The position numbers and the translations under genes were made by a program. Shown piece by piece: positions 1 to 9,886 of a stretch of DNA of 12,942 nucleotides. Each line of letters opens with the position of its first letter. The first letter of the stretch is position 1. Location of the stretch: the NCBI GenBank assembly GCA_016928125.1, contig JAFGLK010000501.1, positions 1-12,942 on the forward strand. The letters are read 5' to 3'. The notes below the pieces were generated by a model. That model searched no databases, was not told the origin of the DNA, and worked only from the letters and a program-made list of their open reading frames with translations. This stretch comes from Anaerolineae bacterium. Its GTDB lineage: Bacteria; Chloroflexota; Anaerolineae; UBA1429.

Positions 1-608
1 GAAAGAGACAGCATGTCGACATGCAGATGATCAACGTTCAGATCAAGGTAGCCCGCTGCCTGCACCGCATCGGTATGCAAGGTGATTCCCCGTGCCTGAG
101 CGATGCTGCCGATCTCGGCGATGGGCTCGATCGTGCCCACCTCATTATTGGCGTACATGATCGAGATCAGAACGGTCTCATCGGTGATGGCCCGTGCCAC
201 GGCGTCCGGATCCACCATCCCGTAGCGATCCACAGGCAGATAGGTGACACGATAGCCAAAGACATCCTCCAGTTGCCGGCAGGTGTGCTCAATGGCATGG
301 TGCTCGATCGAGCTGGTGATGATGTGACCACCGCCCACCCTCTGAGCTAGAGCGCTGCCGCGTAAGGCCAGATTATCGCTCTCGGTGCCGCAACTGGTAA
401 AGACGATCTCCGTGGGCGCCGCCCCGAGGATATCGGCCACCGTCTCTCGCGCGCTCTCCACGGCCTGCTGTGCGATCTGGCCCGCCTGATGCACACTGGA
501 AGCATTCCCATAACGCTCGGTGAAATACGGCAACATGGCATCCACGACTCGAGGATCGACGGCCGTAGTCGCTGCATGATCCATGTATACACGGGCAGCC
601 CTATTCAT
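1..608 (-). CDS. iscS: Cysteine desulfurase (NifS/IscS family), N-terminal part, cut by the window edge
   Basis: PLP enzyme that removes sulfur from cysteine to give alanine and an enzyme persulfide, feeding Fe-S cluster assembly and other thio-transfer in the cytoplasm. 202 codons are visible. The N-terminal MDHAATT motif is at residues 9-15, followed by GNASSVH (34-40), TSCGTESDN (71-79) and SSIEHHAI (99-106), in which H103 matches the PLP-stacking histidine. NNEVGT is at 154-159 and HTDAVQAAG at 178-186, with D180 and Q183 in the PLP-contact positions. The frame leaves the window at ...VDMLSL, just before the expected S-x-H-K motif, so the PLP lysine and persulfide cysteine are not seen. 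ATG 608 has GAGGGG upstream at a normal distance; an in-frame ATG lies at codon 9. It is third in the rrf2-cysE-desulfurase series, 126 nt after cysE. IscS and NifS subtypes cannot be separated from this fragment, so the symbol is tentative. Confidence 0.95.
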
Positions 609-652
609 GCGCTTTCCCCTCATCTTGTTTTCAGTGTTCCGAGTACCTCAAT

Positions 653-736
653 CTGCGGCGCGCATCCTGCGGCGCGCATCCTGCGGCGCGCATCCTGCGG
701 CGCGCATCCTGCGGCGCGCATCCTGCGGCGCGCATC
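653..736. repeat. Six perfect tandem copies of a 14-bp GC-rich unit
   Basis: The unit CTGCGGCGCGCATC occurs six times head to tail without a mismatch, at 653-666, 667-680, 681-694, 695-708, 709-722 and 723-736. Read along the minus-strand operon it is GATGCGCGCCGCAG. Each unit contains the short inverted repeat TGCG-GCG-CGCA, so a transcript could form serial small hairpins or alternative pairings between units. The array fills two thirds of the cysE-desulfurase gap and touches the last two bases of the cysE stop codon. The 14-nt period is not a multiple of three, and the array is not part of either gene's reading frame. A microsatellite-like slippage origin, a structured spacer or a protein-binding array are all possible. 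No other copy was seen in the window. Confidence 0.98.
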
Positions 737-1445
737 ACGACTCTGATTCGAAGGTCGTTGCCGGTACGCGCCTCTCTTCCAGGACTGTCGAGAGATCCTG
801 CGTCAACACATACACTTCCCTCTCGAGCTCGCGAATCCGCGCGTCCATCTGGCGACAGAGTTCAGCGATCGGGTCAGGGAGCTGAGCGTGCTGAAAGTCA
901 AAGCTCGATCGCTGCATCTCGACATGCGGACCTCGCACCACGCGAGCGGGCACGCCCACTGCCGTGGATTCGGCCGGCACGGGCCGGATGACCACTGCGC
1001 CGGAGCCAATCTTAGCATTGTTGCCGATCGTGATCGGTCCAAGCACCACAGCATTGGAGCCGATGATCACGCCATCCTCGATCGTGGGGTGACGCTTGCC
1101 TTTGTTGAGAGATGTGCCGCCCAACACAACCCCTTTGTAGACCAAGACGTCATCGCCGATCTCAGAGGTCTCGCCGACCACGATCCCCATGCCGTGGTCG
1201 ATGAAAAACCGGCGACCGATTGTGGCCGCTGGATGAATCTCGATGCCTGTGAGCCAACGGCTCAGGTGTGATAGAAAGCGCGCCAGCCAGCGCAATTTCC
1301 AGCCCCACAAGATGTGGGCCACACGGTGTGACCAGATCGCATGGAGCCCGGGATAGCAGGTGATGACTTCCCACCAGGTGCGCGCAGCCGGGTCCTTGGC
1401 GAACACTGTCTGTACGTCTTCTTGAAGCAATTTCCAAAGCATCAT
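735..1445 (-). CDS. cysE: Serine O-acetyltransferase (CysE/EpsC type)
   Basis: Transfers acetyl from acetyl-CoA to L-serine, giving O-acetylserine, the carbon acceptor for cysteine synthesis; cytoplasmic. At 236 aa it is the short EpsC-like form, not the roughly 270-aa enterobacterial form. Helical N-terminal part at residues 1-66, then a left-handed beta-helix of hexapeptide repeats at about 67-170. Signature stretches are [13 protein letters not shown] (67-79), [12 protein letters not shown] (81-92), LGGT (108-111), KRHPTI (117-122) and GVPARVVRG (164-172). H84 corresponds to the catalytic histidine of E. coli CysE, and E69 stands where E. coli has its partner aspartate. The tail, about residues 173-236, includes a charged, coiled-coil-like helix ([14 protein letters not shown]) and ends ESES, lacking the terminal isoleucine that E. 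coli CysE uses to bind CysK. Two ATGs lie in tandem: 1445 and 1442. An AGGG is 4 nt from the first and 7 nt from the second, so 1442 may be the real start. It lies 60 nt after rrf2 and upstream of the desulfurase that uses its end product. Confidence 0.96.
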
Positions 1446-1505: not shown

Positions 1506-1928
1506 TCAGAGGGCAGCGGGATCCCAATGCACCAAGTCGGCCAATGATGTGTTGTCCAGGGTCTCCTCCAGCCTATCCGCCACCAACTGCCAGACATTGC
1601 GGCTGGCACAGATCGGCTGGCGCTCACACTGGACACCGTCGTCGCGCATACAGTCAAGAGCGATCAGGCCACCTTCCACCGCGCGAAGCACATCGCCTAC
1701 GCTAATGGTTTCCGGGCGGCGCGCCAACAGATACCCGCCATGGGCGCCGCGAACGCTGGCAAGCAACTCAGAGTCGCGCAGGACCGCCGCAACGCGCTCC
1801 AGGTACGGCAGCGACAAATCCTGTACCTGGGCGACCTCGCGGAGTGGGGTTGGCCCTTGCCCGTAGCGCCGCGCCAATTCGACCATGGCGCGCAGCCCGG
1901 TGCGTTCCATCGCAGAGAATCTCATCAT
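1506..1928 (-). CDS. Rrf2 family transcriptional regulator (IscR/CymR-like)
   Basis: Winged-helix DNA-binding regulator, about 140 aa as usual for the family, probably dimeric. The N-terminus MRFSAMERTGLRAMVELA matches the Rrf2 opening, followed by the recognition helix region (DLSLPYLERVAAVLRDSELL) and the wing RGAHGGYLLAR. Three cysteines, C94, C102 and C108 (numbered from a TTG at 1931), form C-x7-C-x5-C, close to the C-x5-C-x5-C that holds [2Fe-2S] in E. coli IscR. The position matching the IscR histidine ligand is arginine here (C-A-S-R). An Fe-S or cysteine-state sensor is therefore likely but not certain. The TTG at 1931 lies inside the putative operator; ATG 1928 (AGG 5 nt upstream) or ATG 1925 (8 nt) are better starts. 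It heads an operon with cysE and the cysteine desulfurase, so it probably controls cysteine/Fe-S supply and its own synthesis. Confidence 0.93.
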   Translation of the reverse strand: MMRFSAMERTGLRAMVELARRYGQGPTPLREVAQVQDLSLPYLERVAAVLRDSELLASVRGAHGGYLLARRPETISVGDVLRAVEGGLIALDCMRDDGVQCERQPICASRNVWQLVADRLEETLDNTSLADLVHWDPAAL

Positions 1929-1929
1929 C

Positions 1930-1953
1930 AATACCTACCAAAAAGTCGGGATT
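1930..1953. promoter_or_regulatory. Candidate Rrf2 operator (inverted repeat)
   Basis: On the minus strand the arms are AATCCCGACT and GGTAGGTATT, separated by TTTT. The second arm matches the reverse complement of the first at 7 of 10 positions. The layout (AT-rich ends, a YCGACT core and a T/A-rich centre) resembles known Rrf2/IscR-type operators. It follows the -10 box directly and covers the expected transcription start and the leader of rrf2, so binding would block rrf2-cysE-desulfurase transcription. Seen: the repeat and its position. Inferred: the binding protein. Confidence 0.6.
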
Positions 1954-9068: not shown

Positions 9069-9112
9069 GCTCACGGCTAGATTGGCATGAATTGGAGCCG
9101 AGGTGTGAGGGT

Positions 9113-9886
9113 ATGCGACTGAAAGCCATTGCTTGCGAGGTCTTGGCGCGCCAGCTCTACTATGTGGCCGCCTTCTCAGAACACATCATCGATATCGAGT
9201 TGGTGAGCAAGGGCCTGCATTCGGAGCCAGACGTGCTGCGCGCCGAGGTGCAACGGCGCATCGACGAAATACCTCAGTCCAAGTTCGACGCGATTCTGCT
9301 GGTGTATGGGCTATGCAGTAACTCCATCGCTGGCCTGGTAAGCAAACACACTCGAATGATCGTGCCTCGAGCTCATGACTGCATCACCCTCTATCTCGGC
9401 TCGAAGGAGCGTTACGGTCAGGAGTTCCGCGAGACGCCTGGCACCTATTGGTATACCGCGGATTACATGGAGCGAGGCGGCGACGAAGGTGACAAGATCG
9501 CGCTCGGATCGGCCAGCGATGAGAAGGTGGCCGAAACCTATGCGCAGTATGTGGCCAGGTTTGGCCAAGATAACGCGGACTATTTGATGGAGGTGATGGG
9601 CGCCTGGCGACAACACTACAGCCGGGCGGCCTACATCGATAACGACGATATGACCTTGCCAGACTACTCGGCTGAGGTGCGCGAGGTGGCCGCGCGACGA
9701 GGATGGGACTTCCAGCGGCTGGGTGGCAATCTCCTGATCATCCGCGACCTGTTGGAGGGTCGCTGGGACGAGGCGCGCTTCCTGATTATCCCGCCCGGAG
9801 ATGCGATCGTCCCAACCTATGACGAACGGATCATCACGCATAGACAACCCGAACAGAGCGACCAGCCGTTGTCTGTGGCTCATTAG
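9113..9886 (+). CDS. DUF1638 domain protein of unknown function
   Basis: 257 aa from ATG 9113 (GAGG 9 nt upstream; a TTG 21 nt earlier is less likely). Recognised as DUF1638 from its conserved segments: [15 protein letters not shown] (6-20), KGLHSEP (33-39), [16 protein letters not shown] (60-75), [19 protein letters not shown] (83-101) and GTYWYT (110-115). No signal peptide or membrane helix is seen, so it is probably cytoplasmic. C8, H36, C68, H88 and C90 fall within the conserved blocks and could form a metal or cofactor site; that is inference. As I recall, family members in other genomes often sit near corrinoid-dependent methyltransferase genes, but none is in this window. It sits between an aminotransferase (44 nt before) and transketolase (14 nt after), which suggests a link to C1-C3 metabolism without proving one. 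No enzymatic role is assigned. Confidence 0.85.

Follow-up and report, generated by a model that had tools for sequence, protein, structure and literature searches.

A perfect 14-bp tandem array between cysE and a cysteine desulfurase gene of an Anaerolineae bacterium, probably a recent minisatellite

The spacer between cysE and a NifS-type cysteine desulfurase gene of an Anaerolineae bacterium contains a tandem array of exactly six identical 14-bp units. We consider it a recent, near-neutral bacterial minisatellite in a tolerant spacer and put the probability of this reading at roughly 70%; the slippage mechanism, the recency and the neutrality are what we infer. Such an array is rare, but its kind is already known. 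The whole stretch of DNA analysed, 12,942 bp, is referred to as the window, and its relevant features are collected in Table 1.

The array and its operon

Tandem Repeats Finder reported a period of 14, 6.0 copies, 100% matches and a score of 168 at 653–736, and a script check found the minus-strand array to be the unit six times over with every letter matching, which confirms the perfect array described in the first-pass annotation. Among 300 mononucleotide shuffles of the window no tandem repeat scored above 65, so that the array is not a product of chance. As read from the sequence, neither edge carries a partial unit. Since the genes lie on the minus strand, the transcribed unit is GATGCGCGCCGCAG. 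The same annotation had called the units GC-rich and had pointed to a self-complementary core, TGCG-GCG-CGCA; the GC content is indeed 78.6% in the array, compared with 47.7% in the rest of the spacer (609–652) and 60.8% in the window, and the core is present in the unit, where it belongs to an imperfect palindrome, TGCGGCGCGCA, contained in each copy. Units of bacterial minisatellites are roughly 10–100 bp long, and the array consists of head-to-tail 14-bp units with a score above chance.

Table 1. Features at and around the array
Feature	Position	Strand	Description and basis
NifS-type cysteine desulfurase	1..608	minus	first 202 codons, ATG at 608, continues past the window edge; TIGR03402
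Remaining spacer	609..652	minus	ribosome-binding-site-like GAGGGG 5′ of the desulfurase ATG; sequence
Possible mini-ORF	620..721	minus	33 codons, from the second unit; putative, sequence only
Possible mini-ORF	631..735	minus	34 codons, start at the TGATG overlap; putative, sequence only
Tandem array	653..736	minus	exactly 6 x 14 bp; minus-strand unit GATGCGCGCCGCAG
cysE, serine O-acetyltransferase	735..1445	minus	236 aa; TIGR01172, 247.8 bits (cut-off 210.65)
Rrf2-family regulator	1506..1931	minus	first gene of the operon; TIGR00738, 118.7 bits (cut-off 73.3); PF02082
Imperfect palindrome AATCCCGACTTTTTGGTAGGTATT	1953–1930	minus	candidate Rrf2 operator
Promoter-like TTGACA-N17-TAGTAT	1982–1954	minus	candidate operon promoter

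On the minus strand the order is Rrf2 regulator, cysE, array, desulfurase, and this layout bears out the earlier placement of the array in an operon-internal gap, outside the genes and just upstream of the desulfurase start. For the partial desulfurase gene TIGR03402 was the best of 26 families with 273.6 bits, a score below the cut-off of 530.75 that applies to the full length. The cysE–desulfurase spacer measures 126 bases (609–734) and holds 82 of the 84 array bases, because the first unit also supplies the final two bases of the stop TGA of cysE (737–735), so that this stop and the first array ATG overlap as TGATG. The C-terminal residues of CysE, FESES, line up with LESED and LEAED at the ends of its closest relatives (P0002–P0004, 78–79% identical), and the cysE stop is therefore probably at its ancestral place, with the array outside the gene. 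A purine-rich stretch resembling the GAGGGG region was also seen by eye in one relative (L111).

No sigma-70-like promoter was found at 608–740 in a scan that covered sites of this type, and no terminator-like site (GC-rich hairpin followed by a T run) was found there either; we therefore rejected the array as a promoter tandem repeat and as an intrinsic terminator or attenuator. No Rfam family reached its gathering score anywhere in the window.

The upstream end of the operon yielded some observations of its own. The mechanically assigned TTG start of the Rrf2 reading frame (1929–1931) lies inside the palindrome AATCCCGACTTTTTGGTAGGTATT, and the ATG at 1928 is the likelier start. Sequences like TTGACA plus AATCCCGACTTTTTGGTAGGTATT were seen by eye directly 5′ of rrf2 in most of 13 relatives, with TTGAC at −50 to −62 in 12 of them. 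In an automatic arm search the AATCCCGACTTTTTGGTAGGTATT site came out for 7 of 14 sequences, and for L117 a site overlapping it; single palindrome scores did not exceed those of shuffles, 239 of 700 of which reach 7 of 9. The palindrome is a candidate autoregulatory Rrf2 operator. Elsewhere in the window (9092–9886), a DUF1638 protein (129.2 bits) is encoded between an aminotransferase-like gene and a transketolase gene.

The six inverted cores, TGCG-N3-CGCA, could also make the array a landing site for a DNA-binding protein, as the palindrome in each unit would allow. However, the unit does not resemble, by eye, the candidate Rrf2 operator of the same operon, and the period of 14 bp does not match the DNA helical repeat. 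Furthermore, no additional copy with 0–2 mismatches occurs elsewhere in the 12,942-bp window, where the six matches with 3 mismatches outside the array compare with a dinucleotide-shuffle mean of 5.84 (at most 3 mismatches), and two adjacent units are absent from the relatives described below. We regard a protein-binding array as highly improbable.

Absence from relatives and rarity of such arrays

The named organisms among the best listed CysE matches were all Chloroflexota, Chloroflexi or Anaerolineae, with identities of 75% (P0006), 72% (P0018), 68% (P0020), 70% (P0021) and 77% (P0027, over 86% of the query). When species genomes were scanned, the CysE alignment matched at least 80 loci, with one Chloroflexota by title among the matches listed. 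From that genome we moved on to three sets of genomes, of which the phylum set contains 400 (118 with a CysE match at E ≤ 1e-60), the class set 396 (14 at E ≤ 1e-92) and the nearest-order set 15 (12 at E ≤ 1e-80). The closest CysE of the order is 77% identical over residues 2–176, and the six best-scoring ones are 70–75% identical over about 210–220 residues.

The cysE–desulfurase junction could be read in 9 of the 12 CysE-bearing order genomes (L082, L083, L111–L114 and L116–L118); in the other three the contig stops in the cysE tail (L115) or inside cysE (L120), or another gene follows cysE (L119). None of the nine readable junctions carries the array, with the gene order the same. Two adjacent units, allowing up to 3 mismatches, were found in 0 of the 15 order genomes and 0 of the 400 phylum genomes, and viral contigs gave no exact two-unit match; in the window the unit occurs at one locus. 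Between the cysE stop and the conserved D-H/N anchor of the desulfurase lie 153 nt in the window and 23–87 nt in the nine relatives. The window would have 69 nt without the array and 83 nt with a single unit, so that a spacer with zero or one unit falls within the range of the relatives. Absence and spacer lengths together therefore fit the expansion of a single segment in the window's own lineage, where the array most likely arose by slippage or tandem duplication. The recent origin proposed in the first-pass annotation is, on these counts, probably right.

Two further observations were made among the CysE matches. In L119 (G411:C322) the gene directly after cysE is IscU-like, as judged by eye, and not a desulfurase, unlike in the nine order junctions. 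P0001, from a JGI contig of 1,297 bp, is identical to the window's CysE but for one residue (N to I), which suggests, at the level of protein sequence, a second strain in public metagenomes.

We surveyed arrays with a period of 8–40, at least three copies and at least 85% match. Among order relatives (80 stretches, 1,161,414 bp) there were four, with a highest score of 135 compared with 168 here; this is not a random sample, as 20 of the 80 loci (L163–L182) are pieces of nine contigs chosen for their cysE, with the first contigs from a number of genomes and long stretches of G408 making up the remainder. The notion that arrays are common in the lineage was rejected at four in 1.16 Mb, and by this count and these scores the array is not merely typical of its group. 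The control set of 80 cysE neighbourhoods among the matches listed (L001–L080; 1,475,107 bp), which includes one Chloroflexota (L007), contained one array of survey grade. The periods of three of the four order arrays, among them that of the G404 array described below, are divisible by three; the exception, with a period of 17 bp and 3.3 copies, separates two convergent ORFs (G413:C4, L206, 1017–1073). Its consensus unit is CGCGCCGCGAGTACTCT, with an AGTACT palindrome.

The 42 Chloroflexota cysE 3′ regions (13,102 bp) yielded a sole array of survey grade and nine weaker rows, one of which, in L121, is a 7-bp repeat with 4.1 copies. The former, in the cysE tail of G404 (G404:C310, L115), is made of 18-bp units that are in frame and unrelated to the present one, with 4.7 copies and 92% match over the last 85 bases, where the contig stops; it is a separate array at almost the same location. 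Because an unrelated array occurs in the cysE tail of this genome, the junction appears to tolerate tandem arrays. The protein tails of 120 listed CysE relatives, of which 6 without an LPDP anchor were left out, showed just a short ERLERLER in P0101; rows that are also in alignment A1 may contain gaps, and gap runs in P0015 and P0018 appeared as ‘repeat’.

That the G404 contig ends inside its tandem array also means that such loci can break assemblies, and the present array could be mis-assembled or differ in its true copy number. Its 84 bp are, however, shorter than an ordinary short read, and the window continues for 12,206 bases past the array on the cysE side and for 652 on the other. An assembly artefact is accordingly very unlikely.

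Predicted effects on the desulfurase start and on translation

The RNA of the array has a predicted folding energy of −46.2 kcal/mol compared with a mean of −46.4 kcal/mol for its own dinucleotide shuffles (z 0.07); with flanks z was 0.38, and as single-stranded DNA it was 0.56. The array RNA is thus no more stable than shuffled sequence, alone or with flanks. However, AUGCGC in the unit and GCGCAU at the desulfurase start are complementary, with a predicted pairing of 0.70–0.77, and the array might by this route alter the RNA at the start, set the ratio of CysE to desulfurase and perhaps act as a slow phase-variable switch. The predicted probability of an unpaired AUG drops from 0.73 at no unit to 0.39 at one unit. 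In a longer context (−150 to +60), deletion of the array raises it from 0.42 to 0.89 and the mean of the SD–AUG stretch from 0.44 to 0.68, so that presence versus absence of the array matters in the prediction. When the unit was replaced by 150 shuffled units, the AUG was as often paired in one of them (0.38 unpaired for the real unit, mean 0.77 for the shuffles) and the opening cost was as high in four; the figure of 1 in 150 is post hoc, because the pairing had been noticed in the folding before the test. The copy number of promoter tandem repeats in M. tuberculosis is reported to be phase-variable (PMC12817950).

The first-pass annotation had suggested that copy number could alter folding or translation and had proposed folding the transcript at different copy numbers. 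These predictions did not bear the suggestion out: the cost of opening the desulfurase start region was 4.2 kcal/mol at 0 units and 4.7–6.8 kcal/mol at 1 to 12 units, alternating between odd and even counts without an upward trend, and the mean unpaired probability of the SD–AUG stretch stayed at 0.44–0.45 throughout 1 to 12 copies. One unit equals twelve in the series of 0–12, and a copy-number effect on folding was rejected for this lack of a dose response. In the longer context the opening cost was 4.7 kcal/mol with the array, 4.1 with the array deleted and 4.3 with the array held unpaired. Nine array-free relatives, whose desulfurase start was chosen automatically as the nearest in-frame ATG 15–45 nt before the motif, range from 4.4 to 12.3 kcal/mol; eight of them lie above the window, which is second lowest of the ten, and occlusion of the start codon was for this reason not promoted as a striking effect. 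The array brings no terminator-like or promoter-like signal visible in the scans, and the opening cost is at the low end of the relatives. In these models a role for copy number is unsupported and the results on start pairing may be read as hints of more than passive spacing; tuning of desulfurase expression by the array is unlikely.

All three sense frames are free of stops within the array, encode the same 14-residue cycle and meet an ATG in every unit. This openness is no evidence for coding, because the sole T of the unit precedes GC and a stop is impossible. The two longer mini-ORFs (Table 1) stop 22 and 11 bases 5′ of the desulfurase ATG, and a third, from 707 with 19 codons, stops 39 bases before it. 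Ribosomes that finish cysE might restart at TGATG, translate the repeat and be delivered near the desulfurase start, in the manner proposed for the mycobacterial interspersed repetitive units (MIRUs) discussed below; with mini-ORF stops at 631 and 620 and the start at 608, such a relay could let the array expand without uncoupling cysE and desulfurase. The overlap at the cysE stop, the ATG in each unit and the open frames are consistent with this, as is PMC12548453, which provides examples of coupling at −1 spacing, of coupling through short ORFs and of MIRUs. In G137 (L082), it is the desulfurase start that forms TGATG with the cysE stop. However, TGATG follows cysE in 2 of the 9 readable relative junctions (L082 and L116) and is the desulfurase start only in L082, the desulfurase of the window has a purine-rich site of its own, the third mini-ORF falls well short of the start and the open frames are uninformative; translation through the array as a relay is quite unlikely.

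An extension of this idea would make the array a translational sensor through which cysteine supply is read by ribosomes, linking cysteine synthesis and use. Ribosomes leaving cysE would re-enter at TGATG and translate the repeat into a peptide, meeting a cysteine codon once in every 14 codons whatever the frame; moving freely, they would strip the AUGCGC units off GCGCAU at the desulfurase start, and in a cysteine shortage they would stall and the start would remain paired. We regard this as extremely improbable.

Known repeats and the probable origin of the array

Intergenic minisatellites and VNTR loci are an established class in bacteria, the latter defined by copy-number polymorphism between strains. 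Like them, the array has a short unit repeated head to tail and perfectly in a spacer, a unit length that is not a multiple of three and no counterpart found in relatives; as a VNTR it is a candidate. Perfect tandem repeats of at least 50 nt in total are also found in archaeal Borgs, which share with the array a recent and independent origin, probable in the case of the array, an often intergenic position and lengths not divisible by three. Borg repeats are, however, enriched in A and pervasive, and partial repeats often flank them, whereas the array is GC-rich, stands alone in the window and lacks partial units, and no relation is implied.

MIRUs have copies at many loci of a genome. According to PMC12548453, MIRUs are apparently mobile, have inserted at start codons and are coupled at −4 nt to the downstream gene, whereas the present unit, 14 bp long and known from one site, shares bases with the upstream stop at −1 spacing; both MIRUs and the array lie beside a stop/start overlap, and in both small sense-strand ORFs could maintain coupling. 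A MIRU-style −4 nt coupling to the downstream gene was rejected, as the array overlaps the upstream stop and its longer mini-ORFs end short of the desulfurase start. The repeats at M. tuberculosis lpdA and cysG, described in PMC12817950 as promoter elements of 54–58 bp, are likewise tandem repeats shortly upstream of a gene, but the spacer of the array has no promoter-like site. Among the papers searched, none combined cysE, cysteine desulfurase, tandem repeat and intergenic.

Our preferred reading remains that of a minisatellite. A 14-bp stretch of the spacer right after the cysE stop would have been duplicated, and replication slippage or unequal recombination would then have expanded it to six copies, so recently that all of them are still free of mutations. 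The resulting array would occupy a place that tolerates additional DNA, between the cysE stop and the ribosome-binding site belonging to the desulfurase itself. It is most likely a passive spacer that is nearly neutral to selection and may drift in copy number, and nothing found suggests a function beyond lengthening the gap. If the array tuned the desulfurase, it would represent phase-variable control of iron–sulfur cluster supply, which the predictions do not favour. If the minisatellite reading is true, the array would be one more slippage-born repeat in an operon spacer and a possible strain marker for an uncultured lineage.
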